DNA of 64,000 bases from Polynucleobacter sp. MG-5-Ahmo-C2. Lineage in GTDB: Bacteria > Pseudomonadota > Gammaproteobacteria > Burkholderiales > Burkholderiaceae. Position numbers and translations under genes: made by a program. Below the pieces are notes generated by a model. That model was not told the origin of the DNA. It saw nothing but the letters and a program-made list of their open reading frames with translations, and made no database searches. The stretch covers positions 1,757,949 through 1,821,948 of the forward strand of contig NZ_CP061304.1 of assembly GCF_018687735.1 (NCBI RefSeq), read 5' to 3'. This document shows positions 26,443-43,692 of the stretch, one piece after another (the stretch's first letter is position 1; every line of letters begins with the position of its first letter).

Positions 26443-26460
26443 GATTCTTGGTGACCTAGG
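26443..26460 (-). repeat. Degenerate tRNA-Phe 3'-end fragment F1
   Basis: GATTCTTGGTGACCTAGG resembles the shared ATTCTTGGTGGCCCGGG that marks the 3' end of tRNA-Phe and its flank in the other fragments. It is preceded by CTGGGCTATCTT, like the sequence preceding fragment F5. It lies 23 bases before the aquaporin stop, the same position as the fragments at the other modules. Confidence 0.45.
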
Positions 26461-26482
26461 TCCAGGAGGCTTAATCCTATCG

Positions 26483-27130
26483 CTAAGACTGCCGCTTTGA
26501 ATGACAAAACAATACTAGCATCACCAATGCCGCCAGCACTTCAAAAAGCGCAAATCCGAAAACATCATTCGGGGCGATTCCAACAAATGTATTTGTCAAA
26601 CTTCTTGCTAGGGCAACGGCAGGATTGGCAAAAAATGTTGAAGAAGTAAACCAATAGCCTGCTGTGACAGTTAGGGCTACAAGCATGGGTACTCTATCTT
26701 TAGCCTCTTTGTCACCAATACGAATTACCGCGAGTAATGCGAGGGTTGATACAAATTCACTTACCCAAATACCTGGGCCTGCTCTGACCTTGGTAGATTC
26801 TTGAATTATGGACAGACTGTACATTAAATGGGTCAGCCATATTCCAGCAATAGCGCCACTGAACTGACAAACCCAGTAGCCCAACATTTTTTTCAAATCG
26901 AGATGGCCCAACTTCCAAAACATCAATGTAACGACTGGATTGAAATGCGCACCAGAAATGGGTCCAAGCAAAGTAATTAGCACATATAAGCCTGCTCCGG
27001 TGGCAATGCTGTTTCCTAGAAGCGCGACTGCAGCATTACCAGCCCCCAATGTCTCGCCCATAATTCCCGAGCCGGTAACGATTGCTAGTAGCAGGGCTGT
27101 GCCAATAAATTCAGAGAGGTAAGATTTCAT
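26483..27130 (-). CDS. Aquaporin/glycerol-facilitator family channel in the ars operon
   Basis: This 215-residue MIP-family channel has six hydrophobic helices and the two pore boxes. The first is NPV (SGAHFNPVVTLMFW) instead of NPA; the second is canonical (FFANPAVALARSLTNTF). In other bacteria (for example Sinorhizobium AqpS) an aquaglyceroporin in the ars operon lets arsenite leave the cell after arsenate reduction. That role fits here because no ArsB or Acr3 pump is present. The start overlaps the arsC stop by 4 bases. Confidence 0.88.
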   Translation of the reverse strand: MKSYLSEFIGTALLLAIVTGSGIMGETLGAGNAAVALLGNSIATGAGLYVLITLLGPISGAHFNPVVTLMFWKLGHLDLKKMLGYWVCQFSGAIAGIWLTHLMYSLSIIQESTKVRAGPGIWVSEFVSTLALLAVIRIGDKEAKDRVPMLVALTVTAGYWFTSSTFFANPAVALARSLTNTFVGIAPNDVFGFALFEVLAALVMLVLFCHSKRQS

Positions 27131-27606
27131 GCTTTTGTGTGAATCTCTTTTAGGCTCATTGAATCTAGTTTATCCAATGGCATTGCGGCAAGAATGTTAA
27201 TTCGCTTTTCAAGTCCATTCATAACGCTTACGAAAGCGGCTTTCTTTTCTAAGTCTGTACCCTGAACTTGTGATTGATCTGGAAAGCCCCAGTGAGCAGT
27301 CACAGGCTGGCCCGGCCAATAAGGGCATTGCTCGCCAGCAGCTTGATCACAAACAGTAATGATGAAATCCATCTTAGGAGCATCAGGCAGCCCATAGACA
27401 TCCCAACTTTTGCTTTTGAGCTTGGCTGAGTCATAGCCCATTTCTTTTGCGAGGTCGGCTGCAATGGGATTAACAGAAGTGCCTGGACTAGAACCCGCTG
27501 AATAACCAACAAACTTGCCACTTGGGTGAGTAGAAGAAAGTGCCTCACCAATAATTGAGCGGGCTGAGTTATGGGTGCATAAAAATAGAATGTTGTATTG
27601 TTTCAT
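27127..27606 (-). CDS. arsC: Arsenate reductase (low-molecular-weight phosphatase type)
   Basis: The 159-residue protein belongs to the LMW-PTPase family of ArsC. The phosphate-loop CX5R motif is CTHNSAR (Cys10-Arg16) near the N-terminus, and FIITVCDQAAGEQCPYWPGQPVTAHWGFPDQS is the conserved C-terminal active-site region with its Asp and extra Cys residues. It reduces arsenate to arsenite using thiol cofactors. It overlaps arsR and the aquaporin gene by 4 bases each, forming one operon. Confidence 0.93.
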   Translation of the reverse strand: MKQYNILFLCTHNSARSIIGEALSSTHPSGKFVGYSAGSSPGTSVNPIAADLAKEMGYDSAKLKSKSWDVYGLPDAPKMDFIITVCDQAAGEQCPYWPGQPVTAHWGFPDQSQVQGTDLEKKAAFVSVMNGLEKRINILAAMPLDKLDSMSLKEIHTKA

Positions 27607-27932
27607 TTGGCCTTGGCTTTCTGAAGAGGTTGAACGAGGCTACACGGTTTACCACCACAGCAGTTATCTAATAAAAACTCACTTAACTTTAGTACCTGTT
27701 CTGCATTTGGGCGATAAATCAAATTACGGCTTTGACGCTCAACCAACAAGAGTTCGGCATCAAGCAAATCTTTTAGGTGAAAACTAAGCGTGGCATTAGG
27801 AATGCCTAGTTTTTCAATAATCTCGCTCGGAGTTAATCCCTTATCACCACGCTGAACAATGAGGCGAAATACATTAAGCCGGGTTTCTTGCCCTAGTGCG
27901 AGAAATGCTGAAATAACTTGAGTATTTTTCAT
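27603..27932 (-). CDS. arsR: ArsR-family arsenite-responsive repressor
   Basis: This 109-residue winged-helix protein has the ArsR HTH (LTPSEIIEKLGIPNATLSFHLKDLLDAELL) and the wing VERQSRNLIYRPN. It lacks the ELCVCDL motif of the plasmid ArsR. Instead the C-terminus carries CCGGKPC (Cys91, Cys92, Cys97), the arrangement known from ArsR of Acidithiobacillus. It should bind its own operator upstream of 27932 and release it on As(III). Confidence 0.92.
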   Translation of the reverse strand: MKNTQVISAFLALGQETRLNVFRLIVQRGDKGLTPSEIIEKLGIPNATLSFHLKDLLDAELLLVERQSRNLIYRPNAEQVLKLSEFLLDNCCGGKPCSLVQPLQKAKAK

Positions 27933-27978
27933 ATTTCCAATTATATGGAAATATATATTTCATGATTGTGACAACTAA

Positions 27979-28039
27979 TATCGTTTCAGACGATAGTAAG
28001 CAGCATCAGGATGTCTAGTGGATAAGTTCTTTTAAGGAC
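27979..28039. repeat. Degenerate palindrome cluster C0
   Basis: TATCGT-TTCAG-ACGATA at 27979-27995 and GTTCTTTTAAGGAC at 28026-28039 are weak versions of the palindromes P1 (GTCGTTTTAAACGAC) and P3 (GTCCTTTAAAAGGAC) of the later clusters. They have the same spacing element (CAGGATG) between them. The cluster lies between the arsR promoter region and the DUF1003 gene end. Confidence 0.5.
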
Positions 28040-28078
28040 AAATCATCATTCGAACAAATAGGCGAGAGATACCGCCTC

Positions 28079-28668: not shown

Positions 28669-28680
28669 GGTGGCCCGGGG
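28669..28680 (-). repeat. Short tRNA-Phe 3'-end fragment F2
   Basis: GGTGGCCCGGGG is identical to the last bases of tRNA-Phe read on the opposite strand. The similarity fades after it (GACCTGGGTTCTAG versus GACCAGGGCCTAGG in other copies). It lies 24 bases before the stop of the glycosyltransferase gene. Confidence 0.55.
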
Positions 28681-28704
28681 AGAAGTTGACCTGGGTTCTA
28701 GCCA

Positions 28705-29974: not shown

Positions 29975-30016
29975 GGGCGGAATCGACCACGGCTACAGGA
30001 TGCCTACATCCGCACT
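29975..30016 (-). repeat. Degenerate tRNA-Phe fragment F3
   Basis: GGGCGGAATCGACCA (29975-29989) is identical to the T-arm part of fragments F6 and F8, and AGGATGCCTA downstream matches F4. GGAT-GCCTAC-ATCC makes a small hairpin at the position of the tRNA anticodon arm. It lies just before the stop of the YoeB gene and marks where the amidohydrolase-like gene is cut. Confidence 0.6.
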
Positions 30017-30032
30017 TAGACTAATGCCTACT

Positions 30033-30299
30033 TTATTCGTAGTGAGTCCACATTCTTAAGATTCGAACCGTCTTCTCCTTGCGGAAAATTTCATAAACTA
30101 AGCGATGCTGAATATTAATTCTGCGTGAGTAAGCCCCTTTTAGATCACCAACTAACTTCTCATAAGGCGGTGGATTTTGTAGGGGATCTACTTCTAAAAT
30201 ATCCAATAAAGCCTGGGTTTTATCTTTAAGGCCAGCGGCAGATAGTTTTTTTGCATCCTTAATGGCATATTTGGAATAAGCTAAATTCCAAGTCACCAC
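30033..30299 (-). CDS. yoeB: Txe/YoeB-family mRNA interferase toxin
   Basis: The 88-residue toxin has the RelE/YoeB fold signature. It has WNLAYSKYAIKDAKKL, then NPPPYEKLVGDLKGAYSRRINIQHRLVYEI with the catalytic Glu and Arg region, and ends MWTHYE, the conserved YoeB C-terminus. YoeB cuts mRNA on the ribosome. It overlaps the antitoxin gene by 7 bases, the usual coupling. Confidence 0.92.
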   Translation of the reverse strand: MVTWNLAYSKYAIKDAKKLSAAGLKDKTQALLDILEVDPLQNPPPYEKLVGDLKGAYSRRINIQHRLVYEIFRKEKTVRILRMWTHYE

Positions 30300-30535
30300 T
30301 TCAATGCCCTTTTACTTTTAGCAATAGGCTCAGCCATAGCGTCTTTAATTGATTCACGCATTCCTGGAATTGCCAATAGATACAGCGTCTCCTGAATAGC
30401 GCTCCAATCTTCTTCAGAAACTAAAACCGCATTTGCTCGCTTACCAGAAATAACTACTGGCTTGTGTGACTCTGCTGTCTGATCAATCAACCGGTAGAGA
30501 CCGGCGCGTGCTTCGCTTGCGGTTATTGTGGTCAT
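30293..30535 (-). CDS. yefM: YefM/Phd-family antitoxin
   Basis: From the ATG at 30535, preceded by AGGAG 8 bases upstream, the 80-residue product begins MTTITASEARAGLYRLIDQ. It includes KPVVISGKRANAVLVSEEDWSAIQET, the Phd/YefM DNA-binding and dimerisation pattern. The C-terminal half should wrap the toxin. An ATG at 30583 would add 16 residues across the operator and is unlikely. Confidence 0.92.
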   Translation of the reverse strand: MTTITASEARAGLYRLIDQTAESHKPVVISGKRANAVLVSEEDWSAIQETLYLLAIPGMRESIKDAMAEPIAKSKRALKW

Positions 30536-30557
30536 GATTTCACTCCTTTTGAATATA

Positions 30558-30573
30558 GTACGCAAAAGCGTAC
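30558..30573. promoter_or_regulatory. Palindromic operator of the yefM-yoeB operon
   Basis: GTACGC-AAAA-GCGTAC is a perfect inverted repeat 23 bases upstream of the antitoxin start. It sits where YefM-type antitoxins bind to repress their own operon. Confidence 0.75.
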
Positions 30574-30612
30574 GCTTTGTCAAGTTGCCATCTCATGCGC
30601 CTGACCAAAAGA

Positions 30613-30641
30613 AAATGCCCCGCATATAGCAGGGCATTATT
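30613..30641. terminator. Terminator-like hairpin preceding fragment F4
   Basis: AATGCCCCGC ATATA GCAGGGCATT is nearly identical to the hairpin at 39809-39834, which also directly precedes a tRNA-Phe fragment. On the minus strand it would terminate transcripts leaving the kinase module. Confidence 0.75.
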
Positions 30642-30646
30642 AAGTT

Positions 30647-30681
30647 TGGTGGCCCGGGGCGGAATCGAACCAGGGCCTAGG
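30647..30681 (-). repeat. tRNA-Phe 3' fragment F4, minihelix type
   Basis: Bases 30647-30672 are identical to the 3' 26 bases of tRNA-Phe (CCA, acceptor strand and T-arm). They are joined directly to GGGCCTAGG. On the minus strand the GGCCC next to the T-arm can pair with the acceptor GGGCC, as if the middle of the tRNA had been deleted while the acceptor stem was kept. The kinase stop codon follows 11 bases later. Confidence 0.8.
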
Positions 30682-30691
30682 ATGCCTAACT

Positions 30692-32410
30692 CTAGCTATA
30701 GGCAGCAGATGGCAATTCAATGACAAACCGTGTACCACCGCCAACCAAATCCTCATGATGGATTGAGCCACTATATCTAGTAACAATATGCTTACAAAGC
30801 CATAAACCTAGACCCATACCAGTCTGCTTGGTTGTACTCAGGAGCTCAAAAAGCTGGGGTTTGAATTCAACGGGCACACCTGGCCCATTGTCAGAAACAC
30901 TGAGACGGACGGACTGACCAACCTTAGTAGCCTCTAATGCTATACGATGCTGGAGCGTTCCTGACTTAGCCAAAGCCTGAATTGCGTTATTCAGTAGATT
31001 TAATATGACTTGCTCGATTTCAGATGGATTCACCATAATCACCAGATCATCATCGACTCGAAGCTGAATTTGAATATTCTTGCTCTTAAGCTCTGGCTTG
31101 ACAATCTCTAGAACGCTTGAAACCAAGTCGCCCAATTGAACTGCTTGAGTGTTGGATTCGCCATCTGTAAAGATTGATCTGAGGGATTTAACAATCGTCG
31201 CAGCCCTCGTATTATCTTGCTCAAGTGAATCCAAGATTTCTTTACCCAACTCAGGATTAAGAGCCCCATTTTCTAATTTCATTTTAAGAAACTGAATATT
31301 CAGATTCGATGCGCCAAGTGGTTGATTGAGTTCGTGCGCAATGGATGCCGATAGGGCACCAGTCGCCGCGGTCTTATTGGCTTTTAGTAGTGAGCCAACC
31401 ATAAAATCGCGTTCGTCTAATAACATTTGTATTTGTGCTTTTTCTTTTTTCAGCCTTTTATTCCAAGACCAAAAAAGAATGAGTCCCAGCAATAGCATCA
31501 CCCCAAAGATGGATGCGTAAATTGCCACAATACGCCAATAACCATAATCAAATCGTACTGAAAACCATTTTTCTTTTAGGCTTTGCTTTTCCTGCTCAGT
31601 TAATGTGTCGAGCACTTTGTTGGTTAAGGTGACTAACTCAGGCCAATCCTTTCTAACCATCATAGACTCACCCTGAATGGGAAAGTTTGTAGGGGCCGCT
31701 ACTGTAAGATTCGAAAAACCATACTGAGCGATCATAAAAGTAGCATTGACTAAGTCCGCGACATAAGCATCGCCAACGCCCGATGAAATGGCTTGTAGCG
31801 CTTCATGTTGTGTCTTTTTTTCGATAAACTCAAAATCAGATACCTCTTTACGCACCAAGCCATTTACGACAAAGCCCTTAACGCCTACAATTTTTTTTCC
31901 AGACAGATCACCAAGCGAAATAATTCGCGCGCTATCGGTCCTAGTGATAATTACCCATGGAGAGAAAAGGTACTGATTTGTATACAGCACATACTTCAGT
32001 CGTTCTGGTAAAAATCTGCCAGTCATGAACACATCTGGACCATTCGCTGTTCCTATAAAAGGGATTGCCTCAGAAAAAGAGCCAGAGAATTGATCTTTGA
32101 ATTCGCAATTTAGCTTATATACCGCACATGTAATCTTGGCGTAATCTATTGCCAAGCCAACGGGCTGCTTTTTATCGTAAAAATATGGCGGGGCTTCAGC
32201 ACTTACCCAAAATCTAATTTTATGATTGGCATCGATCCACTGTTTTTCAGAATCCGATGGCTGAATTTTCCCAATCAAGCGATCTGAAATCGCTACAACA
32301 TCTGGGCTAATAGCATCATCTTTTATCTGAGCCAACGCATTGGAAGTAAAGATCCCAATAAAAAAGACAATATAAATATTGCTTAAATGGATTTTGGCAA
32401 TATTTTTCAA
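30692..32410 (-). CDS. Hybrid receptor: periplasmic binding domain (SBP family 3) plus histidine kinase
   Basis: The 572-residue protein starts with a signal or anchor (1-27). A family 3 solute-binding domain follows (about 45-265, with IRFWVSAEAPPYFYDKKQPVGLAIDYA), then a membrane helix (about 277-298) and a short coiled coil. The kinase part has H-box SIAHELNQPLGASNLN, N-box LNLLNNAIQAL, DNGPGVP and GMGLGLWLCKHI. It senses a small external ligand, probably an amino acid or related acid, and autophosphorylates. No response regulator is adjacent, which is unusual; it forms a single-gene module. Confidence 0.9.
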   Translation of the reverse strand: MKNIAKIHLSNIYIVFFIGIFTSNALAQIKDDAISPDVVAISDRLIGKIQPSDSEKQWIDANHKIRFWVSAEAPPYFYDKKQPVGLAIDYAKITCAVYKLNCEFKDQFSGSFSEAIPFIGTANGPDVFMTGRFLPERLKYVLYTNQYLFSPWVIITRTDSARIISLGDLSGKKIVGVKGFVVNGLVRKEVSDFEFIEKKTQHEALQAISSGVGDAYVADLVNATFMIAQYGFSNLTVAAPTNFPIQGESMMVRKDWPELVTLTNKVLDTLTEQEKQSLKEKWFSVRFDYGYWRIVAIYASIFGVMLLLGLILFWSWNKRLKKEKAQIQMLLDERDFMVGSLLKANKTAATGALSASIAHELNQPLGASNLNIQFLKMKLENGALNPELGKEILDSLEQDNTRAATIVKSLRSIFTDGESNTQAVQLGDLVSSVLEIVKPELKSKNIQIQLRVDDDLVIMVNPSEIEQVILNLLNNAIQALAKSGTLQHRIALEATKVGQSVRLSVSDNGPGVPVEFKPQLFELLSTTKQTGMGLGLWLCKHIVTRYSGSIHHEDLVGGGTRFVIELPSAAYS

Positions 32411-32479
32411 AATGAATTTGTTGGCGCCTTTTTTTCTTAAATTCTATAGCAATACTTTGGCAGAACATAGAGGTAATAA

Positions 32480-32560
32480 ATGTCGTTTTAAACGACATTG
32501 AGAGTTAATGGACTCTTGACCGACACAGGGATGTTTAATTGACATGTCCTTTAAAAGGAC
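32480..32560. repeat. Palindrome cluster C1
   Basis: P1 is ATGTCGTTTTAAACGACAT at 32480-32498, a perfect palindrome around one base. CAGGGATG follows at about 32526. P3 is GTCCTTTAAAAGGAC at 32546-32560. The cluster lies between the kinase start and fragment F5. Confidence 0.9.
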
Positions 32561-32620
32561 AATTCATGATGAGGATATCGGGCTCTAATGGTGGCTACCC
32601 CTACCAAGCCACTAAAGAAA

Positions 32621-32641
32621 ATAGCCCAAAAAGTGGGCTAT
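32621..32641. terminator. Hairpin preceding fragment F5
   Basis: ATAGCCCA AAAAG TGGGCTAT is a stable stem 10 bases before the 45-bp tRNA-Phe repeat. It is placed as at the other fragments. Confidence 0.65.
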
Positions 32642-32646
32642 TGAGA

Positions 32647-32695
32647 TTCTTGGTGGCCCGGGGCGGAATCGAACCACCGACACAAGGATTTTCAA
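32647..32695 (-). repeat. tRNA-Phe 3' direct repeat F5 (45 bp exact, 49 bp with flank)
   Basis: Bases 32651-32695 are identical to 43617-43661, the 3' 45 bases of the intact tRNA-Phe from anticodon loop to CCA. The match continues 4 more bases (TTCT) outside the gene. Beyond it the sequence still resembles a tRNA weakly (a Phe-like GGAGGATATTTGAAAATCC arm on the minus strand) but cannot fold into a full tRNA. This has the form of an attR site. The rest of 32696-32884 holds no gene I can support. Confidence 0.93.
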
Positions 32696-32884
32696 ATATC
32701 CTCCGATAGACCGCTTTCGCAAGCATTTCAAGGGCTTGAGTCACTAGTCTCGACTTATCAAAAACTATACGTCCTTGTGCCGGTCAAATTTGGCAATGAA
32801 ATCAGAATCTTGCGAGGGGCAATTTTTCTGTGCGCACAGATTGTGTTGCCATATCCTTCCACTCAACTGCCATAGTGTCTTGTA

Positions 32885-33017
32885 ATGTCGTTTAAAACGA
32901 CATCTATCGTTAATTATCGCGGCAACTTTTACTTTGATAGCCTTATATGCGTATATACGCATATATGAGATGTCTTTTTAAAGGACGTTTCAGTAAGCGT
33001 CTATTACATCGACGCTT
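32885..33017. repeat. Palindrome cluster C2, downstream of cydB
   Basis: P1 ATGTCGTTTAAAACGACAT is at 32885-32903. P4 ATATGCGTAT/ATACGCATAT is at 32945-32964. P3 GTCTTTTTAAAGGAC is at 32972-32986 with one mismatch. AAGCGTC / GACGCTT arms at 32995-33017 are related to P2. The cluster lies immediately before the cydB stop. Confidence 0.88.
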
Positions 33018-33028
33018 AAATTGCTGTT

Positions 33029-34042: not shown

Positions 34043-34044
34043 GT

Positions 34045-35773: not shown

Positions 35774-35798
35774 ATGAGTTTTAGATAATGCCGAATTT

Positions 35799-35813
35799 GT
35801 CGTTTAAAACGAC
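35799..35813. repeat. Isolated P1 palindrome
   Basis: GTCGTTTAAAACGAC is the same 15-base palindrome core as in clusters C2 and C4. It is followed by ATCGCGAGTTAAGG, which resembles the flank of P1 in C1 (ATTGAGAGTTAATGG). Confidence 0.88.
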
Positions 35814-35863
35814 ATCGCGAGTTAAGGCGTAGCGAGAGCCAACTACAAAGCTCTCGCATACCT

Positions 35864-36394: not shown

Positions 36395-36396
36395 GA

Positions 36397-36951
36397 TTAG
36401 CTTGCCTTTCTGTACATGAAGCTTGCGACGATGACGCCAAAACCAAAGAACATGGCTAATGCGACAAAAGAACTTACTGATAACTGCATCATGCCGCTCA
36501 GTCCATGTCCACTAGGACAGCCATCGGCTAAGCGAGCGCCAATCATTGCCACGATGCCGCCAACAAAAGCAAATACAGCACGCTTTGGAACTGAAGAGCC
36601 AAAACGTTTTTCCCATAATGGTGGCAGGCTTTCTAACTTAAAACTGCCATCCATTTTTGAGGAAAGCAATGCGCCAAAAAAGATGCCAATCACCATGAGA
36701 AATTGCCAATCAATAACAACTTTTTCTTTTGCGTAATAAACATTTTGTGCAACATAGCTAGGGTCTACCACTTGAACTGCTAGACCTGCCGCGCGAACAA
36801 AAGTAGTTGATGCTCCTAAGTAGGTGGACTTGCCCATATAAACGGTAGTCAGATAGACAGAAACGATAGCCAGCACTCCAACTAAGGCACCTGCCAAATA
36901 GGGACTCCAACCTTTAGAGCTAGATGCTCTGGTTTGTTCTGGATTGATCAT
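36397..36951 (-). CDS. YeeE/YedE family membrane transporter, first half-size subunit
   Basis: The 184-residue protein has four or five membrane helices and the signature GARLADGCPSGHGLSGMMQLSVSSFVALAMFFGFG with the conserved Cys. It ends 2 bases before its partner starts. The upstream DUF2892 gene and an FNR-type site suggest induction under low oxygen. The transported compound is inferred to be thiosulfate or a related sulfur species. Confidence 0.88.
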   Translation of the reverse strand: MINPEQTRASSSKGWSPYLAGALVGVLAIVSVYLTTVYMGKSTYLGASTTFVRAAGLAVQVVDPSYVAQNVYYAKEKVVIDWQFLMVIGIFFGALLSSKMDGSFKLESLPPLWEKRFGSSVPKRAVFAFVGGIVAMIGARLADGCPSGHGLSGMMQLSVSSFVALAMFFGFGVIVASFMYRKAS

Positions 36952-36996
36952 CTTGGATCCTTATCAGTGATTTGCTTGTTAGCTGTTGGCAAAAGA

Positions 36997-37209
36997 TTAC
37001 TTAGAACAACTGCCATTGCTACAGCCAGCGCCGCAAGAATTGATTCCCAAGATTGGATACATTGGGCAGAACTTAAATAAGCCAGTTGCCAAAGGAATAA
37101 TGCCAATCCAGCCCCATACGCCAACCACATTGCTTGCGGCTAAACCAACTAAGACCAGTCCAACAGAGATGCGTAGTACGCGATCGATACGGCCAACATT
37201 ACATTTCAT
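36997..37209 (-). CDS. DUF2892 (YgaP-like) small membrane protein
   Basis: The 70-residue protein begins MKCNVGRIDRVLRISVGLVLVG and has two membrane helices, GWIGIIPLATGLFKFCPMYPILGINSC, and a Cys-rich end (SCGAGCSNGSCSK). This is the DUF2892 pattern also found at the C-terminus of YgaP rhodaneses. It probably works with the YeeE pair in sulfur trafficking. A competing frame at 36948-37130 in the same region is rejected. Confidence 0.88.
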   Translation of the reverse strand: MKCNVGRIDRVLRISVGLVLVGLAASNVVGVWGWIGIIPLATGLFKFCPMYPILGINSCGAGCSNGSCSK

Positions 37210-37270
37210 ATAACCCCCATTAATTATTATTTTTGCTTTGTTAAGACTATGCTCATAAGCACCAAGCCAT

Positions 37271-37284
37271 TTGATCTATATCAA
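37271..37284. promoter_or_regulatory. FNR/DNR-type binding site
   Basis: TTGATCTATATCAA matches the FNR consensus (TTGAT-N4-ATCAA) perfectly. It lies 62 bases upstream of the DUF2892 start, a good place to activate the DUF2892-YeeE-YeeE operon when oxygen is low. Confidence 0.8.
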
Positions 37285-37310
37285 TAACTTGTCTGCATTG
37301 AGCGGTGTTA

Positions 37311-37324
37311 CCACCCGAAGGTGG
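37311..37324. terminator. Small hairpin after the Met-rich gene
   Basis: CCACC-CGAA-GGTGG forms a stable tetraloop hairpin just beyond the stop of the 37347-37706 gene on the minus strand. There is no clear T-run. Confidence 0.45.
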
Positions 37325-37346
37325 CTTCTACCCACGCTCAACTGAT

Positions 37347-37706
37347 TTATCCGCAGTTTCTGCCCGACATCATTTGCGGGCCATGTCCTGCTGGCAAAGT
37401 AATGCCTTTTTCTTTGGCGCGCTTTTCCATCTCTGTATGTGTAGCTGTCATGATTGCTTGCCGCTCTTCTACTGTCTTGGCATCAATCATCTTGTCCATC
37501 ATGGCCAGTCTTTCGGCAGGAGTCATCAACTCACGCATAATTTTCATGTTGGCGTTTTGCCCCATCATCTGACCTTGCATCATTTGGCCACGCATCATGC
37601 CTGGGCCCATGCCATTACCCATTGGACCTGGCTGAGCATAGGCTACAGCCAATCCAAGACCCATGACAGTGGCAACGCTAATTGCAATTTTGTTTACAGT
37701 TTTCAT
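37347..37706 (-). CDS. Met-rich periplasmic protein, probably metal-binding
   Basis: From ATG 37706 the 119-residue product has a signal peptide (about 1-24, ending AVAYA). A Met/Gly/Gln-rich stretch follows (GPMGNGMGPGMMRGQMMQGQMMGQ), then helices with LMTPAERLAMMDKMIDAKT, similar to Spy/CpxP-like LTxxQ helices. Met-rich regions of this type bind Cu(I). It follows a heavy-metal chaperone gene, so a role in copper handling in the periplasm is likely. Confidence 0.75.
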   Translation of the reverse strand: MKTVNKIAISVATVMGLGLAVAYAQPGPMGNGMGPGMMRGQMMQGQMMGQNANMKIMRELMTPAERLAMMDKMIDAKTVEERQAIMTATHTEMEKRAKEKGITLPAGHGPQMMSGRNCG

Positions 37707-37728
37707 TTTGAATTTCCTATTCATTTAG

Positions 37729-38007
37729 TTAGTTACAGCAACAACTTGTGCCACTCTTACAAGAACCACTCTTAGCCTTTGCTTGAGGCGATGCATCAGA
37801 ACTGATCTTTGCGGGATAACCATCCTCTTCTAATGCCGCAATAATCTCTTTTACCTGTTGCGAGATATTGCCTTCAACCTTGACTGCGCCAGAGGCAAGA
37901 TCTACCTCAACCTTTTGCACCCCAGCAATTGAATTAATGGCTTTTTCAACATGCTTTACGCAAGCACCACAAGTCATTCCACTTACCGTTAAATTGATTG
38001 TTTCCAT
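37729..38007 (-). CDS. Heavy-metal-associated (CopZ-like) chaperone
   Basis: The 92-residue protein has the HMA fold with METINLTVSGMTCGACVKHVEKAI, where CGAC is the metal-binding CxxC. VEVDLASGAVKVEG and ALEEDGYPAKI follow. An extra Cys-rich tail (SCKSGTSCCC) extends beyond the domain. It is a soluble Cu(I) or similar chaperone, and an AGGAGG ribosome site precedes it. It is divergent from the Crp-type regulator gene. Confidence 0.9.
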   Translation of the reverse strand: METINLTVSGMTCGACVKHVEKAINSIAGVQKVEVDLASGAVKVEGNISQQVKEIIAALEEDGYPAKISSDASPQAKAKSGSCKSGTSCCCN

Positions 38008-38058
38008 ACCAACCTCCTTTGTATGAATTGATTATTCGCTCAATCATCCAAAGAGCGT

Positions 38059-38072
38059 ATGATTTAAATCAT
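38059..38072. promoter_or_regulatory. CRP/FNR-type palindrome at the regulator start
   Basis: ATGATTTAAATCAT contains the FNR half sites TGAT and ATCA with the standard 4-base spacing. It abuts the ATG of the Crp/Fnr gene, a position suited to autorepression. Confidence 0.65.
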
Positions 38073-38678
38073 ATGGACATCTATATTCCTGAACTGCTAA
38101 AGGAGCTCCTGCCCAAAGGACTATTGGGGCAATGTCATGCCCATCACTTTGAAAAAGGTGATTACCTTTTCCATCAGGGCAAAAAACCTGAATACATGTT
38201 CTTTATTGTTTCGGGCGAAGCTGTTCTTACGAGAATCAGTAGCCATGGAGAGCCCACTACATTACAAAGATGTAAGGGTGGCTTTGTCAGTGAAGCCAGT
38301 TTGTTAGTAGATGCTTATCACTGTGATGCTATTGCGACTCACAATGGACAAGCGATCACGCTACCCATTAAATCTTTAAGAGAAGCACTCGCCGATAGCA
38401 AGTTCTCAATGAAATGGGTGCAGTTGCTTAGCAAAGAGATCATGCGCCTTCGAACACAATCTGAACGATTGGGACTTAAAGACATTCGCAGTAAATTAAT
38501 TCATCTGATTGAGACCGAAGGCAAACAAGGCGTATTGACACTTCAGTCTGATTTCAAATCCATGGCTTCAGAGATCGGCGTTACGCATGAGGCGTTATAT
38601 AGGGCTATCGCCACATTAGAAAAAGAAGGTCTACTAGAAAAACATCCTGATTCCTTGGAATTGCTAAAGAAAAAATAA
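38073..38678 (+). CDS. Crp/Fnr-family transcriptional regulator
   Basis: From ATG 38073 the 201-residue product has a cyclic-nucleotide-type sensor domain (about 10-120, FEKGDYLFHQGKKPEYMFFIVSGEAVL) and a C-terminal HTH (MASEIGVTHEALYRAIATLEKEGLL). It lacks the N-terminal Cys cluster of FNR; one Cys is near residue 21. It is therefore more like DNR-type or haem/NO-type regulators. It probably controls the surrounding YeeE and metal genes through the TGAT-N4-ATCA sites. Confidence 0.88.
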   Translation: MDIYIPELLKELLPKGLLGQCHAHHFEKGDYLFHQGKKPEYMFFIVSGEAVLTRISSHGEPTTLQRCKGGFVSEASLLVDAYHCDAIATHNGQAITLPIKSLREALADSKFSMKWVQLLSKEIMRLRTQSERLGLKDIRSKLIHLIETEGKQGVLTLQSDFKSMASEIGVTHEALYRAIATLEKEGLLEKHPDSLELLKKK

Positions 38679-38691
38679 TACTCAAGAGGTA

Positions 38692-38807
38692 ATGTCGTTT
38701 AAAACGACATCTCAAGCACCGACCCTAGATGAGTGTCGCTTAAATCGACACTTGACCACTACAGGGATGTCAAATCCCCCGTTCATTAAGCGTCCTTTAA
38801 AAGGACG
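38692..38807. repeat. Palindrome cluster C4
   Basis: P1 ATGTCGTTTAAAACGACAT is at 38692-38710 and P2 GTGTCGCTTAAATCGACAC at 38733-38751. A GGGAT-GTCAA-ATCCC hairpin lies at about 38764-38778. P3 CGTCCTTTAAAAGGACG is at 38791-38807. This is the full P1-P2-hairpin-P3 order and it precedes fragment F6. Confidence 0.92.
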
Positions 38808-38897
38808 ATTCAATATGGAGATATCTGGGAGAAATGGTGACTGACCGCGGCTGACACTAGAGATTCTATGGGCCAACTCTAATGCTTCAAGAATTCT

Positions 38898-38932
38898 TGG
38901 TGGCCCAGGGCGGAATCGACCAGGGCCTAAGG
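38898..38932 (-). repeat. tRNA-Phe 3' fragment F6, minihelix type
   Basis: TGGTGGCCCAGGGCGGAATC matches the tRNA-Phe 3' end with one change. It then continues GACCAGGGCCTAAGG, so the T-arm is joined directly to a GGCCC that can pair with the acceptor strand, as in F4 and F8. The DUF4239 stop follows 22 bases later. Confidence 0.78.
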
Positions 38933-38953
38933 AGTTCTCATCCTATCTGAAAA

Positions 38954-39736
38954 CTACATCTGCCTTGCTTTCATTAGTTTAATTGTGTCAACAATCGCAT
39001 CAGGCTGAATTGCCGTCTCCCCTAGGAATGGCTGATCAAAAATGAATACGATGGCCAAGAGCGAGGCGAGCACCACCATCTGAACGCCCAAAGAAAATGA
39101 CTCTTCACGGGAGGGCTTATAAGCTGAAGAAAGCAATGTCTTGGCCACAAAAAGAATGGCGATTGCCAGCCAATAAATATATGGGATTTGAATATGGGCA
39201 ATCTCAATTCTTGAATCTCGTGACTCTGCTATAGATTCGGTTAATTTGACTATTTCACCGTAAAGCATTTCTTCACGACCATTTGATGGCTTAATGCCCA
39301 CAGCCGCTCGTGCTACAGGCAAAAATAGTTTTTGGGTTTTATCGCTTCCGTGCCCCTCATAAAGAGTGGGCCACTCATCTTTCACAATTGATTCGGTGTA
39401 AGCAAGTAGGTCTGATCTTATGACATCAAACTTATGGTCGCCATAGCGAGTCAATAACCGATCCAGATTGTTAATTTGGGTTGCCTCAAGCGAAACAATC
39501 GCGTCAGATTTTTGAAAATTGGTTAAGGCTTGAACCATTGAAAACGCGATGATTGCCGCTAAGGCCGACACCATGGTGCTGTGGATACTGATTGATAGTT
39601 CTCGTTCCTCGCCCGGTATCAACTTATTTAAAATAGGCCTTAGAATGGCATGAAGTGAATACATCGCAATTAAGCAGGCTATTGAGAACAGCAGAATAAT
39701 TAGCCAATCAGGCCATGAATTAAGTATCTTGATCAT
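38954..39736 (-). CDS. DUF4239 (bestrophin-like) membrane protein
   Basis: From ATG 39736 the 260-residue protein has two N-terminal helices, the second within HSTMVSALAAIIAFSMVQALTNFQ. A helical periplasmic or cytoplasmic part with VSLEATQINNLDRLLTRYGD follows, then two C-terminal helices. This is the DUF4239 pattern, distantly similar to bestrophin channels. The function is unknown. It is a single-gene module between F6 and F7. Confidence 0.82.
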   Translation of the reverse strand: MIKILNSWPDWLIILLFSIACLIAMYSLHAILRPILNKLIPGEERELSISIHSTMVSALAAIIAFSMVQALTNFQKSDAIVSLEATQINNLDRLLTRYGDHKFDVIRSDLLAYTESIVKDEWPTLYEGHGSDKTQKLFLPVARAAVGIKPSNGREEMLYGEIVKLTESIAESRDSRIEIAHIQIPYIYWLAIAILFVAKTLLSSAYKPSREESFSLGVQMVVLASLLAIVFIFDQPFLGETAIQPDAIVDTIKLMKARQM

Positions 39737-39808
39737 TATTGGGATCCTATTTTTTGTTTTTACTAAACCCTGCCAATTTAAACATTTTTCTGCGTCAGAG
39801 CAAATGAA

Positions 39809-39834
39809 AATGCCCCGCACGAAGCAGGGCATTA
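39809..39834. terminator. Terminator-like hairpin preceding fragment F7
   Basis: AATGCCCCGC ACGAA GCAGGGCATT is nearly identical to the hairpin before F4 at 30613. The flank GAAAATGCCCCGCA is also shared, so hairpin and fragment travel together. Confidence 0.75.
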
Positions 39835-39843
39835 TTTAAATCT

Positions 39844-39867
39844 TGGTGGCCCGGGGCGGAATCGAAC
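39844..39867 (-). repeat. tRNA-Phe 3' fragment F7
   Basis: The 24 bases are identical to the tRNA-Phe 3' end up to the T-loop (GGAATCGAAC), then diverge to TCGCGATCGACGG. The TAXI-protein stop codon comes 15 bases after. Confidence 0.85.
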
Positions 39868-39881
39868 TCGCGATCGACGGA

Positions 39882-41279
39882 TTAATATCTGGAATTAGAT
39901 GCAATTTTACTTCTTACTAATTCAATCGCACTAAGGAGATTGAAGTATGAATTTTCCATGCCAATGGGTACTCTTTCAGAGATAACCTGTTTATTTAATT
40001 TCTCTAGCCGCTGAAGAAGGTATTCAGCATCAGATTTAACTAATTGAGAAGCGGTGATCTTTCTCTCTATTGAGAGTAATTCCTCAAGATATGGACTTTG
40101 CCTGATTTCATAATTAATAGAACGCAACTTCATATTTAATTTTGCCAATGGATACAGTAGCGCAAATGCGGTGAGCAAGAAAATCCATAATCTATTTGTA
40201 AATCCTGCTAAGAAAAAAGGAAGGTGACTAAATATTTGCGGCACACCTTGGTTATAAAATTTTCTAGCAACTGGGCTTATGGGTATAGAGGGGTCCATAT
40301 ATTTCGGAAATTCCCCTCTAGATGCAAAAAACAAACTTTTAAAATCTTGTAAACAATCACGTACAGTTACAAGGAGTAAAGTTTGAACGTCTTCATTCAA
40401 ATCCTTCTTAACAGCAAGCGTTGTAGTAGTAGCAATTAAAGAAATATCTTTATCAGGTATTGATTTAGCAATATCAACAGAATGGGCTGGTAAGACAAGT
40501 TTTTCAAGGTATGGAACTGACATTTGATAAGCTTTTGCATCTGGTATACCCATTAGTGCAATTTTTGGGTTTCTGAGTAGAAACTGAACTTTCCTATCAT
40601 GATAGGGCATCACTTCAATTGTGCAATCTAATTTCGATTTGAGGAGATCTTCAAAGTCAGCCTCGTAAGAGCTGACTCTAAAATTATTTCGACTGGCAAT
40701 CTCAATTCCATTCGCCTCAAAAAGGCGCTTTACTAAGGGGAGAGTGCCTCCCCCTGCTGGTCCTAAGCCTACGTTTAAATTAAGTCTTGCTAAATCTTTG
40801 AATTCTTGCGGCATTTTTACTAAATCTTTTCTACAGAAAATCCATACTGGCTCATAGGCAATGCTTCCGAGTGAGTAGAAATTTTGTGATTGCTCATTGC
40901 TTATGGCCCCACCTTGAATAAGAGCAACATTGACATCACTATTCGGATTCTCGAGCAGATTAGCATTTTCTATAGTGCCAGCTGTAGCAATTAAATCCAC
41001 TTTTAAGCCATTTTCCTCAAGCGAATCTCTGAAGGCCTCCGCCAACCTGGTGTAAGCATACTCTGTGCTTTTATTTGTCGTTAAAGTGACTGAGCGTGGC
41101 GGGAATGGTTTAAGAAGCAATATGATAGCCAGCAAAATGGCTATGACTATGATGAGGAATATTTTTCTCTCAATAAATAGTTCTTTGAGTGCTAGAAATT
41201 CATCGCGCAGAACTAACTTAATGTAGTTGAATCCTTGATTTTTCAAAGGTATGACCTTTAATCGGAAATTGAGGGGCAA
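39882..41279 (-). CDS. Membrane-anchored TAXI-family solute-binding protein
   Basis: The 465-residue protein has a basic N-terminus and a membrane helix (about 37-57). A TAXI-type binding domain follows (about 65-330) with GTIENANLLENPNSDVNVALIQGGA and PVWIFCRKDLV, then a second membrane helix (about 365-385) and a C-terminal coiled coil. TAXI proteins normally serve TRAP transporters, but no permease is here. The extra C-terminal segment suggests a sensor or scaffold variant. It forms a single-gene module. Confidence 0.8.
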   Translation of the reverse strand: MPLNFRLKVIPLKNQGFNYIKLVLRDEFLALKELFIERKIFLIIVIAILLAIILLLKPFPPRSVTLTTNKSTEYAYTRLAEAFRDSLEENGLKVDLIATAGTIENANLLENPNSDVNVALIQGGAISNEQSQNFYSLGSIAYEPVWIFCRKDLVKMPQEFKDLARLNLNVGLGPAGGGTLPLVKRLFEANGIEIASRNNFRVSSYEADFEDLLKSKLDCTIEVMPYHDRKVQFLLRNPKIALMGIPDAKAYQMSVPYLEKLVLPAHSVDIAKSIPDKDISLIATTTTLAVKKDLNEDVQTLLLVTVRDCLQDFKSLFFASRGEFPKYMDPSIPISPVARKFYNQGVPQIFSHLPFFLAGFTNRLWIFLLTAFALLYPLAKLNMKLRSINYEIRQSPYLEELLSIERKITASQLVKSDAEYLLQRLEKLNKQVISERVPIGMENSYFNLLSAIELVRSKIASNSRY

Positions 41280-41460
41280 TCTTTCGGTATTGAGAATTAT
41301 ATGGCAATGAATGAAGGGTTTTTAGAATTCAATTTTTCTAAGTAATAGCCGTAAGCAACCCCTCAGACCACAATCTACTGGTATCGCCATTGAGAATGTG
41401 TAGTAATTGCCTAGATACTTTCCAGCATGCCCAGCATTACTTAAAGTAACGCCTAAAAGA

Positions 41461-41492
41461 CAAAACCCCCACCATTGCTGGTGAGGGTTTTG
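41461..41492. terminator. Hairpin with flanking A/T runs
   Basis: The arms CAAAACCC and GGGTTTTG, extended by CACCA / TGGTG around a short loop, form a strong stem between the TAXI gene start and fragment F8. Confidence 0.6.
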
Positions 41493-41558
41493 TACGACTC
41501 GACACATAGTTAACACTTTATGCCGTGGAATGAAAGTACGAAGATTGCTTACTGCAGG

Positions 41559-41584
41559 TGTAAACCATGTGTCCGGTACGGACC
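41559..41584. repeat. IS-end-like repeat copy 1
   Basis: TGTAAACCATGTGTCCGG followed by the partial palindrome GTCCGGTACGGAC. It resembles terminal inverted repeats of IS481/IS21-type elements as I remember them. No transposase gene is present. Confidence 0.5.
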
Positions 41585-41593
41585 GGTGTTTCT

Positions 41594-41640
41594 TGGTGGC
41601 CCAGGGCGGAATCGACCAGGGCCTAGGATGTCAAATCCTT
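41594..41640 (-). repeat. tRNA-Phe fragment F8, minihelix type with anticodon-arm-like hairpin
   Basis: TGGTGGCCCAGGGCGGAATC matches the tRNA 3' end with one change (shared with F6), then GACCAGGGCCTAGG. GGAT-GTCAA-ATCC lies at the position of the anticodon arm. The phasin-like gene stop is 38 bases further. Confidence 0.78.
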
Positions 41641-42064: not shown

Positions 42065-43344
42065 GATTGGTCTCCTGTTGTAGTTACTTGGGAAGGTGAA
42101 ACTGTTACTTCATGGTGCTGATCAGCATCTTGAATAAATTGGGTAATCATTGGGGCAATCGTGCGACGAAACACTGCGCCATTAAAGGTTCCGTAATGCC
42201 CTACTCCTTGAATCAACTCGTAGCGTTTGTGTTTTTCAGGTAGGTTTGGCGTGATATCAAATGCCGCTTTCGTTTGACCAACACCACAAATATCATCCTC
42301 TTCACCTTCTATGACCATCAAATAGCTTTTGCGAATATGTTTAGTATCTACCTGATGCCAACGGCTCATCATCTTTCCTTGTGGTAAGGAATGTTCTTGA
42401 AAGACTTCTTTGATGGTTTGAAGATAAAACTCTTCGGTTAAATCCATCACTGAAAGATATTCATCATAAAAAGCTTTGCGCCGATGGGCTTCTTCTTCAT
42501 TTCCCCGAACCAATGCCTCGTGCATGGCATCAATTGAGATGGCATGACGATCAGAATTCATAGCCATAAAACTGTTTAGCTGTAAAAAACCTGGATAAAC
42601 CCTTCTGCCCATGCCTAAAAATGGTGGTGGCACAGGTTGAATCAAATTTTTCTCAAACCACTCTAGATCGTGAGATTTTGCAAACTCATTAACCTTGGTT
42701 GGATTTACTCGAGTATCAATCGGTCCAGCGATCAGCGTTAATGAGCATGGCTGACAGCGATCACCCCAATCTGACATGATGGCAGTAGTTGCAAGGGCGG
42801 CTACGGTAGGCTGACACACTGCCAACACATGGGTCTTAGGGCCTAAGAAATGCAAGAAATCAATTAAGTAGTCTATGAAATCATTAAGATTAAAGCGATC
42901 TTGATTGGTGGGAATGTTCTTGCAATCTAACCAATCAGTAATGTAAACATCATGCTCTGGTAGCATTGCCTCAACGGTACCTCGCAAAAGGGTGGCAAAG
43001 TGCCCCGAATAGGGAGCAACAATGAGTAGTTTTGGTTGATGTAATTTTGTGGCTACTTTTTTGAAATGCACTAATTGGCAATAAGTTCGCTTGAGAACTA
43101 TTTCATCTTGAATCTCAACTGCCCCTCCATTAACCTCAGTCTCATGAATACCCCACTCCGGCTTGAGATGAGCGCCTGACAATTGCTCTATGACATCTAG
43201 CCAAGCAAGATTAGATTTATGGAGTTCCGTATTAATAAATGGGTTGGCCGCACTATTTAAAGTAGCCCGCACAATCCTGAGAGATTGACGCATTGGTCGA
43301 ATACTGGAAGCAATTGTGTTTTGCAAAAGGTATAGCATGCCCAT
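42061..43344 (-). CDS. phaZ: Intracellular polyhydroxyalkanoate depolymerase
   Basis: The 427-residue enzyme resembles PhaZ of Ralstonia. It has an alpha/beta hydrolase core with the Cys nucleophile in the lipase-like box VCQPTV (Cys177), the Asp region MVIEGEEDDICG, and the His in GVGHYGTFNGAVFRR. It degrades stored polyhydroxybutyrate. The start is at 43344 or two codons later. With the phasin-like gene it forms the two-gene module next to the intact tRNA. Confidence 0.92.
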   Translation of the reverse strand: MGMLYLLQNTIASSIRPMRQSLRIVRATLNSAANPFINTELHKSNLAWLDVIEQLSGAHLKPEWGIHETEVNGGAVEIQDEIVLKRTYCQLVHFKKVATKLHQPKLLIVAPYSGHFATLLRGTVEAMLPEHDVYITDWLDCKNIPTNQDRFNLNDFIDYLIDFLHFLGPKTHVLAVCQPTVAALATTAIMSDWGDRCQPCSLTLIAGPIDTRVNPTKVNEFAKSHDLEWFEKNLIQPVPPPFLGMGRRVYPGFLQLNSFMAMNSDRHAISIDAMHEALVRGNEEEAHRRKAFYDEYLSVMDLTEEFYLQTIKEVFQEHSLPQGKMMSRWHQVDTKHIRKSYLMVIEGEEDDICGVGQTKAAFDITPNLPEKHKRYELIQGVGHYGTFNGAVFRRTIAPMITQFIQDADQHHEVTVSPSQVTTTGDQS

Positions 43345-43411
43345 CCCTTAGCTAAGAGTTTGAACCCTGATAGTTATCCTTAGATATGACAACTTGATTA
43401 CAAGCTGTTTA

Positions 43412-43526
43412 ATCTCGTTTTAAACGACATTACAAGCAGTGATGGTAAATAAGCGTCGCTTAAATCGACGGTTAACCAACGCAGGGATGACAAATCCCCA
43501 ATAAATAAAGCGTCCTTTTAAAGGAC
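43412..43526. repeat. Palindrome cluster C5
   Basis: P1 TCTCGTTTTAAACGACAT is at 43413-43430 with one mismatch. P2 CGTCGCTTAAATCGACG is at 43454-43470. A GGGAT-GACAA-ATCCC hairpin lies at about 43484-43498. P3 GTCCTTTTAAAGGAC is at 43512-43526. The order and spacing match C4. Confidence 0.92.
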
Positions 43527-43556
43527 AGTTCATGATGGGGGGATGTGAACGGCAAC

Positions 43557-43607
43557 TGTAAACCATGTGGTCGGTACCGGATGTAAACCGTGTGTCCGGT
43601 ACGGACC
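43557..43607. repeat. IS-end-like repeats copies 2 and 3
   Basis: TGTAAACCATGTGGTCGG at 43557 and TGTAAACCGTGTGTCCGG at 43582 are tandem variants of the 41559 repeat. Copy 3 matches it with one difference over 26 bases. Confidence 0.55.
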
Positions 43608-43616
43608 AGGGGTTCT

Positions 43617-43692
43617 TGGTGGCCCGGGGCGGAATCGAACCACCGACACAAGGATTTTCAATCCTCTGCTCTACCGACTGAGCTACCAGGCC
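43617..43692 (-). tRNA. tRNA-Phe (GAA)
   Basis: The 76-base gene reads 5' from 43692. The acceptor GGCCTGG pairs with CCGGGCC. The D-arm is GCTCAGTCGGTAGAGC and the anticodon arm AGGATTGAAAATCCT has anticodon GAA. The T-arm is GGTTCGATTCC within its stem, and the 3' ACCA is encoded. It is the only intact member of the fragment family in this window. It sits at the right edge of the accessory array and 58 bases beyond the ycaO-fusion stop. Confidence 0.98.

Follow-up and report, generated by a model that had tools for sequence, protein, structure and literature searches.

Cassette arrays built on tRNA-Phe 3'-end fragments at the tRNA-Phe gene of Polynucleobacter

How does one tRNA gene come to be followed by copy after copy of its own 3' end, with genes lodged between the copies? 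The question is raised by a 64,000-nucleotide stretch of Polynucleobacter sp. MG-5-Ahmo-C2 (NCBI RefSeq assembly GCF_018687735.1, contig NZ_CP061304.1, positions 1,757,949 to 1,821,948; hereafter the window), the terminal 64 kb of a 1.82 Mb single-contig genome. An initial annotation, made from the sequence alone, had described a series of tRNA-Phe 3'-end fragments there and had proposed that small gene cassettes were repeatedly captured at this tRNA by a recombinase encoded elsewhere. The series itself was confirmed by ARAGORN, by BLASTN and with a 22-base pattern. ARAGORN finds a single intact tRNA-Phe in the window (43617-43692, minus strand), and the fragments span 26.4-41.6 kb on its 3' side, all in the direction of the tRNA. 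With the tRNA region as query, BLASTN matched 32647-32695 (49 bp at 100%), 41559-41615, 30646-30672, 39841-39867 and 38894-38919, and also recovered small pieces at 29975 and 28669. The 22-base pattern, with at most three mismatches, gave six forward matches in the whole 1.82 Mb genome, namely five fragments and the intact gene, with none in reverse, none in the control and none outside the window.

Such arrays of tRNA-Phe fragments are real and genus-wide in Polynucleobacter. We selected 40 loci from relatives in which the position of tRNA-Phe was listed, preferring genomes with few contigs, and searched them together with the window using a weight matrix trained on the fragments of these 41 loci, which misses heavily decayed copies. 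At a threshold of 10 the matrix found 201 forward sites (160 fragments and the 41 intact genes), with none on the other strand, none in the reversed control and none in the roughly 1.3 kb examined upstream of the tRNA. Fragments were lacking altogether in three of these loci (L048, L053 and L075). A 21-base form with up to two mismatches was matched in 142 of 151 genus genomes, the intact gene included, at 1 to 15 copies per matching genome, and its reversed control was zero in every row. A pattern for the commoner of the two fragment classes described below (class b) occurred, with at most two mismatches, in 38 of 61 genus genomes and in none of 337 genomes from 24 other genera of the family. 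An exact search with it in the named genome collection gave 47 stretches. Every isolate record among these bears the title Polynucleobacter, and the remainder are metagenome-assembled genomes under the names Polynucleobacter, Burkholderiaceae, Burkholderiales, Alcaligenaceae or uncultured beta proteobacterium. Among the matches listed, the tRNA-Phe 3' end with at most three mismatches reached no more than four copies per genome in other genera, against up to nine in Polynucleobacter. Recurrence in dozens of genomes, many of them single-contig, rules out an assembly artefact.

Two further sets of 20 stretches were added, for which the matrix threshold was raised to 14. The second contained 13 stretches with the tRNA (three of them fragment-free) and seven without it; the third was picked partly for a nearby integrase or a wide gap between the tRNA and ycaO, and six of its stretches entered the class counts. 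The class analysis thus covers 60 tRNA loci, of which six are fragment-free, leaving 54. Open reading frames (ORFs) were called mechanically, at a minimum of 70 amino acids, and are not curated genes; long modules, meaning segments between successive fragments, may contain undetected internal copies. All comparisons are between species, with one genome per species in the collections.

Compared among relatives, modules differ in order and content, cassettes present in one being absent from another, and breaks in homology fall at the fragments; an identical module order in all relatives was not seen. The modules are units common to different species. Across 54 tRNA loci, 220 modules were compared; 98 of them group into 33 families, with alignment over 75% or more of both members and with every family present in at least two genomes. 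The largest has 14 members of 642-677 bp, 13 of them at tRNA-Phe and one in a secondary array, and length is similarly constant in a family of 947-953 bp found in seven loci and another of 1228-1231 bp found in five. Only four adjacent pairs of families recur in more than one locus; neighbours otherwise differ. Within the arrays, 51% of the left ends and 38% of the right ends of 1276 homology blocks (at least 300 bp) lie no more than 70 bp from a fragment core, against a mean of 8% and a maximum of 12.6% when the cores were rotated. A copy of the phasin-phaZ cassette of the window is 99.7% identical over 1147 bp (L059, genome G031) although the ycaO region of that genome is 77% identical, which speaks for recent exchange between species.

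Array growth occurs at the tRNA end. Loci L066 and L083 share 6.67 kb at 95.5%, with four cassettes in identical order; the match stops 26 bp into a core. That core belongs to the intact tRNA in L066, whereas in L083 three more modules follow before the tRNA is reached. Similarly, L050 and L067 share 3.8 kb at 95.8%, with two common cassettes, and L067 carries six additional modules on the tRNA side. A difference of one cassette was found between L070 and L054, where the cassette lies between neighbours that adjoin elsewhere (about 80% identity). Cores farther from the tRNA carry more mismatches (mean within-locus Spearman 0.42; 27 loci with at least three fragments each, 143 fragments), a trend that 0 of 1000 permutations equalled. 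Taken together, the comparisons lend strong support to the earlier proposal of repeated capture of small cassettes at tRNA-Phe.

The fragments had been taken as all of one kind, which proved incorrect: there are two classes. We classed 251 modules from the 54 loci by the sequence to the right of the core and obtained 36 of class a and 215 of class b. In class a, identity with the tRNA continues to the anticodon loop and ends exactly after TTTTCAA in 31 of 36 modules, a set selected by identity up to +45 that favours ends at or past that point; under a looser definition, in which nothing beyond +36 is considered, the exact end is seen in 31 of 39. Several relatives also have extra DNA on the 5' side of tRNA-Phe that ends in a remnant of the 5' half of the tRNA. 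Among 13 such remnants longer than 40 bases (L100-L116), 11 begin at the first base of TTTTCAA, one begins four bases before it and one five bases after it; this count omits a shorter, poorer match in L102 and includes L104 and L105, which resemble one element in two genomes. The ends of the 3' fragments and the starts of the 5' remnants therefore overlap by seven bases, the signature of tyrosine-integrase crossover, and class-a modules thus show the fixed overlap of 6-8 bases typical of islands mobilised by such enzymes. Elements enter tRNA-Phe from the 5' side as well in L100-L116, and two loci (L109, L116) bear two 5' remnants each. A 13-kb viral contig, L169 (IMGVR_UViG_3300025206_000016), is filamentous-phage-like by reading, with zot-like, secretin-like, replication and integrase ORFs, and is bounded at both ends by a 51-bp repeat of the tRNA-Phe 3' part up to exactly TTTTCAA; it appears to be another type of element using the same site.

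In class b, GGAATCG is followed by a flank of about 30 bp with the consensus (A)ACCAGGGCC(G/T)AGGATG(C/T)CTAATCCTA, of which GGGCC is present at 0.77-0.87 per base in the 215 sites. Class-b modules are small, with a median of 1.1 kb against 3.5 kb in class a, where the four modules that hold an integrase reach 9.7-16.0 kb. The gene layout also differs. Of the 208 class-b cassettes that have an ORF, 180 carry the one nearest the core on the tRNA strand, with its stop a median of 29 bp from core position +21, and the stop codon nearest the next core lies about 50 bp from its start; the longest ORF is on the tRNA strand in 162 of 215, and seven have none. Class-a modules have their nearest ORF on the tRNA strand in 28 of 36 cases, at a median of 271 bp from core +21. 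The earlier observation that every window fragment except that at 32651 sits close behind a stop codon holds, and the exception arises because 32651 is the only class-a copy in the window and the nearest ORF is further from the core in that class. In the strictest test of the class-b crossover, only 10 of 311 variants at core +0 to +15 were shared, so the left half of the core is clearly not part of what is transferred with a cassette. On these alignments, the class-b crossover is best placed within the 22-bp core and not at a single base.

Which enzyme could act at these sites? This genome has three PF00589 matches: XerD and XerC, both named by their setting, and a 339-aa integrase far from the array that by reading adjoins glycosyltransferase-like and epimerase-like ORFs. 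The nearest of these to the window is XerC, with an ORF ending 0.2 kb beyond the left edge; by its housekeeping setting it is not a phage-type integrase. The initial annotation had reported neither integrase nor transposase in the window; PF00589 indeed has no match in these 64 kb, a profile that can miss divergent integrases and does miss two of three copies of the integrase described next, and transposases were not searched for. PF13102 gave no match in this genome and matched two of eight genomes, one of them over the cut-off.

A tyrosine integrase of about 420 aa, which we call IntF420, is the likely enzyme for class a. Two of three copies match PF13102 and one of three matches PF00589, and the protein was found in 112 of 186 genus genomes. 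Of the stretches examined, 24 loci have a match to it. In four loci (L052, L056, L114 and L115) the distance from its start to a core is 123 bp. It lies about 350-415 bp upstream of the tRNA core in L085, L091, L100, L101 and L110 (L100 and L086 are one genome, counted once), and is 241-258 bp from a 5' remnant in L103, L106, L108 and L109. In L097 and L111 it lies 179 and 365 bp left of a core; it is farther away in L112 (1.3 kb) and in L045, L042 and L084 (1.9-3.4 kb). Four of the 36 class-a modules contain it (L045, L052, L056 and L084), and that of the window does not. From these positions, the class-a enzyme is probably of the IntF420 family. Islands that target tRNA genes through a tyrosine integrase, with crossover in the anticodon loop or the T-loop, are known; class-a modules resemble them in the seven-base anticodon-loop overlap and in the integrase beside the junction of some elements, and differ in that entry occurs from both sides of the tRNA and that 32 of 36 modules lack an integrase. 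Many of the listed IntF420 copies show one stop within the match, which may reflect decay or an end effect. A small 188-aa recombinase that accompanies IntF420 in many elements is a candidate only. Relatives of IntF420 elsewhere are distant, with one record in the phage collection (24%) and six in the plasmid collection (25-33%).

The earlier suggestion of a recombinase encoded elsewhere thus gains a good link for class-a modules and is unproven for the class-b majority, since no recombinase could be tied to class-b junctions in the genomes and stretches examined. Several candidates for enzyme and vector were rejected. A universal third tyrosine recombinase fails on genome G134, which has just two PF00589 matches; the serine recombinase profile PF00239 matched two of 15 genomes and not this one; 11 kb of the array had no megablast match among plasmids; and the class-b pattern had no exact match in viral contigs.

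Two kinds of secondary element accompany the sites. The 40 nt on the 3' side of the fragments, read on the tRNA strand, have a mean folding energy of -11.1 kcal/mol, compared with -4.2 kcal/mol when their letters are shuffled, and the hairpins at 251 module ends could be sorted into terminator types T1 (109), T2 (54), T3 (16) and other (72). Judging by this arrangement, each insertion would supply a rebuilt tRNA gene complete with a terminator. The second kind is a pair of 17-bp palindromes, TGTCGTTTTAAACGACA and TGTCCTTTTAAAGGACA, found in the window between 32481 and 43527. With at most two mismatches they have 18 matches at 11 places, against 0.01 expected, all at 32.4-43.6 kb of the window; with one mismatch, all 12 matches of this genome (seven places) lie in that interval, and among the matches listed for other genomes some are located elsewhere. 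Their density is 0.47 per kb within arrays and 0.065 outside. Distances to the core peak at 105-109, 115-119, 150-154 and 170-174 bp on the left and at 55-59 and 235-239 bp on the right. Of the 36 class-a modules, 23 have a palindrome to the right of their left core and 22 have one to the left of their right core; for the 215 class-b modules these counts are 14 and 71. By analogy, the palindromes may be arm-type sites like those of a lambda-like attachment site; a role as operators is possible.

We therefore propose, with a probability of about 0.74, that tRNA-Phe is a reserved insertion site to which small modules are added singly by site-specific recombination. Each module would bring its own copy of the tRNA 3' end, with a terminator-type hairpin behind it. 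On entry, these would make the tRNA gene whole again, and the older 3' end would be displaced outward and remain as a fragment at the far end of the module. Most modules are read in the direction leading away from the tRNA, and a class-b cassette amounts to roughly one gene and one attachment site. Class-a modules would recombine at the seven-base anticodon loop, IntF420 being the likely enzyme, and the 32 that carry no integrase would move in trans; class-b cassettes would recombine in the acceptor/T-arm part of the tRNA through their own flank of about 30 bp. The scheme further supposes circular intermediates, supply of enzyme in trans, a class-b enzyme and a vector between species. More tentatively, and at somewhat less than even odds, the whole may form a cassette-capture system of Polynucleobacter with an origin independent of integrons, with a tRNA as anchor, a tRNA-derived tag of about 30 bp, a terminator in each cassette that keeps the tRNA alive, recombinases of visiting elements and a genus-wide pool of cassettes.

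Several observations weigh against this proposal. Excision and circles of Polynucleobacter modules are something we infer. IntF420 has no match in this genome, in G134 or in G106, although all three have arrays, so the proposal needs the enzyme to come in trans or to have been available earlier; in several of the 24 loci that do have it, it lies kilobases from any core, and these stretches were largely chosen for a listed integrase or a wide gap, so that their junctions are not a random sample. Variants at core +19 to +21 are shared in 4 of 32 cases, by which the class-b crossover is not fixed at one point; an earlier count, on pairs of at least 94% identity and with shared neighbours included, had given 4 of 5, the later test being stricter on neighbours and looser on identity. 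The class-b flank contains one candidate stem, for which no covariation was found across the 215 sites. Only 91 of 288 cores have a palindrome within 400 bp on the left, and the longest ORF is on the opposite strand in 46 of 215 class-b cassettes. Finally, the terminator module varies within one cassette family (family 0, encoding a BrnT-type protein), so some recombination falls outside the core. This family is seen with three different terminator modules and varying flanks (L040, L042, L043, L044, L045, L050, L066, L067, L072 and L076), from which it follows that gene bodies become joined to different site modules.

The last point leads to a rival reading that dispenses with a site-specific enzyme. 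Ancient elements would have left the 3' ends, and RecA-dependent homologous recombination between the terminator-core repeats of about 60 bp, after DNA uptake, would now delete, duplicate or trade between species the modules that lie between them. That all sites are direct repeats in a single orientation fits this reading, which also explains the swapping of terminator types better than a site-specific enzyme does; array genomes such as G134, with no tyrosine recombinase beyond two PF00589 matches, and an array in which one cassette family is present twice (L057) are likewise in keeping with it. It does not account for the exact class-a breakpoints (31 of 36 or 31 of 39) or for the arrival of new modules at the tRNA end in two locus pairs, and the class-b GGGCC stands beside unrelated genes and is absent at that position from the tRNA target, which homology to the target cannot explain. 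We consider it unlikely as the main route; cassettes may well be spread and shuffled by RecA acting on the repeats.

Elements are well known to accumulate in tandem at tRNA genes, and the modules could instead be the immobile remnants of integrase-bearing islands that integrated serially and then decayed. The rise of core mismatches with distance agrees with this, as does the presence of elements of 9.7-16.0 kb with an integrase in the same target (L045, L052, L056 and L084). Independent decay would not yield modules of 0.5-3 kb and near-constant length that recur with different neighbours, and the class-b flank and gene-to-core spacing are uniform; we regard this history as improbable. A true integron, or a cluster of attC sites lacking an integrase (CALIN), in which an IntI-type integrase acts on folded single-stranded attC sites, would match the single-gene cassettes with a stop beside the site, one orientation and growth at one end, and is nevertheless very improbable given sites derived from a tRNA, no covarying class-b stem and no integron integrase (TIGR02249) over the cut-off in any of 186 genus genomes.

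On the proposed scheme of insertion at tRNA-Phe, the window reads as an array of modules of both classes (Table 1). Three copies are degenerate. That at 28669 scores 20.1 on the weight matrix; those at 26449 and 29975 score under the threshold of 10. We accept 29975 as a fragment because its right half matches the class-b flank and because the yefM-yoeB cassette that it starts has a core at both ends in four other arrays; 26449 was accepted by reading alone, on its hairpin, TTCTTGGTG and a class-b-like flank.

Table 1. Coordinates of the tRNA-Phe gene, fragments, modules, hairpins and palindromes in the window.
Feature	Position	Strand	Evidence
Intact tRNA-Phe (GAA), insertion target, proximal array end	43617..43692	-	ARAGORN; Rfam RF00005, 68.1 bits
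Two palindrome copies, 204 and 106 bp left of the intact tRNA-Phe core	43413..43527		
phasin-phaZ cassette: 128-aa ORF without Pfam match and polyhydroxybutyrate (PHB) depolymerase PF06850	41619..43616	-	Pfam
Class-b fragment, left end of phasin-phaZ cassette	41594..41618	-	BLASTN, pattern, matrix
Single-gene cassette, PF16868 NMT1-like (39882-41279)	39869..41593	-	Pfam
Fragment, left end of NMT1-like (TAXI) cassette	39844..39868	-	BLASTN, matrix
Single-gene cassette, PF14023 bestrophin-like (38954-39832)	38923..39843	-	Pfam
Class-b fragment, left end of bestrophin-like cassette	38898..38922	-	BLASTN, pattern, matrix
Three palindrome copies, 205, 164 and 107 bp left of the 38898 core	38693..38807		
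Class-a module: cydB/cydA, two PF04143 ORFs, unmatched 125-aa ORF, HMA domain, Crp-like regulator (+)	32696..38897	-	
Palindrome, 235 bp right of the 32651 core	32886..32902		
Sole class-a fragment of the window; tRNA-Phe identity through anticodon-loop TTTTCAA, where it stops	32651..32695	-	
Terminator-type hairpin T2 after fragment	32622..32641	-	Reading
TGTCCTTTTAAAGGACA-type palindrome, 106 bp left of the 32651 core	32545..32561		
Palindrome TGTCGTTTTAAACGACA, 170 bp left of the 32651 core	32481..32497		
Single-gene cassette, SBP_bac_3-HisKA-HATPase (30692-32410)	30673..32650	-	Pfam
Class-b fragment, left end of the solute-binding protein (SBP)-histidine kinase cassette	30647..30672	-	BLASTN, pattern, matrix
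Terminator-type hairpin T3	~30614-30641	-	Reading
Degenerate class-b fragment and yefM-yoeB cassette	29975..30646	-	BLASTN, Pfam
Degenerate fragment, left end of glycosyltransferase module (28705-29403, PF00535)	28669..28690	-	BLASTN, matrix
Strongly degenerate fragment, distal limit	26443..26480	-	Reading only; below matrix threshold

Several window cassettes have relatives in other arrays. The phasin-phaZ cassette has them in L041, L044, L059 and L083 at 84.8-99.7%, as part of longer segments or at the limit of the examined stretch; its earlier label is borne out for the phaZ-type gene and finds no Pfam match for the ORF called phasin. The SBP-histidine kinase cassette is covered over 1941 of 1983 bp at 87.1% in L040, as the sum of separate matches, and the yefM-yoeB cassette occurs in five other arrays (L063, L064, L065, L072 and L085) at 89.5-92.0%. 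Beside the distal fragment, genes at 26483-28594 encode an aquaporin and LMWPc, ArsR-like and DUF1003 proteins. In the class-a module, the adjacent ORFs at 35864-36951 match separate parts of PF04143 (14-149 and 171-308 of 310), as if one protein were split in halves. Across the genus, the cargo is diverse: a Pfam tally covering 107 of the 223 listed class-b proteins found 101 families, none in more than five members, with solute-binding proteins, CBS domains, hydrolases, LysR regulators, tautomerases, aquaporins, transporters and acetyltransferases among them. The most widespread cassette encodes the BrnT-type protein, and another encodes YefM-YoeB. Small secondary clusters of sites lie distant from the intact tRNA-Phe in L080, L081, L082 and L087 (genomes G106, G059 and G018). 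In L081 and L082 the last site continues, by reading, into an apparent decayed 5' part of tRNA-Phe, as if it were a former second anchor, and the common BrnT cassette is present in the L081 cluster.

Additive flexible genomic islands (fGIs), in which a conserved tRNA is the target of gene cassettes, have been described in Alteromonas (fGI1; PMC4119200) and in Ca. Actinomarinales (fGI1; PMC7771536), where recently added cassettes are delimited by direct repeats of a section of the tRNA. The Polynucleobacter arrays are alike in the tRNA target and the added cassettes: the conserved tRNA stands at one border with fragments on its 3' side only in the 41 loci, direct repeats of tRNA parts bound the cassettes, and cassettes are present or absent among relatives, here between species where the content of those islands varies between strains. 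They differ from the islands, as described in the parts of those papers available to us, in their cassettes of mostly about 1.1 kb, the dedicated class-b flank, a terminator-type hairpin at each site, two crossover classes and cassettes traced across many species. Very close in kind is fGI-2 of Ca. Methylopumilus, also a freshwater betaproteobacterium, a tRNA-Lys island of 330 bp to 42 kb that is called additive (PMC10872708); it concerns another tRNA and family, and, in the sections of that paper at hand, site anatomy, recombinase and exchange at cassette resolution are matters given for Polynucleobacter only. The tycheposons of Prochlorococcus, as quoted in part of the same paper, are cargo elements of 4-200 kb at tRNA genes with a tyrosine recombinase within the element, unlike class-b cassettes, which are near single-gene and carry no recombinase.

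The integron-like layout noted earlier stands as a description of layout. The cassettes are mostly of one gene, in one orientation and at one anchor; they consist of gene plus site with the stop beside the site, new cassettes appear at the anchor, and toxin-antitoxin cassettes are among the widespread ones. The anchor differs in being a tRNA gene, the sites are tRNA-derived, each has a terminator-type hairpin, and no IntI passes the cut-off. The Polynucleobacter array is a compact, integron-like variant of the additive tRNA island and not an integron, because the integron integrase, the defining feature, was not found over the cut-off in 186 genus genomes. Among the papers listed by literature searches, we recognised none describing a tRNA-Phe island in Polynucleobacter, and an earlier description is possible; in a word search of one Polynucleobacter paper (PMC5644125), tRNA, integrase and cassette occur 0 times and genomic island 18 times.

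If the proposed scheme is true, these small-genome freshwater bacteria would have a simple route for exchanging single genes between species without the need for integrons, and toxin-antitoxin pairs, transporters, enzymes and regulators would be among the cargo. Additive tRNA islands, mostly described as regions in the accessible parts of the literature cited above, would become open to molecular tests, since the sites, one crossover stretch and a candidate enzyme can now be named. The arrays also raise the question of how a single tRNA gene withstands being entered again and again, from either side.

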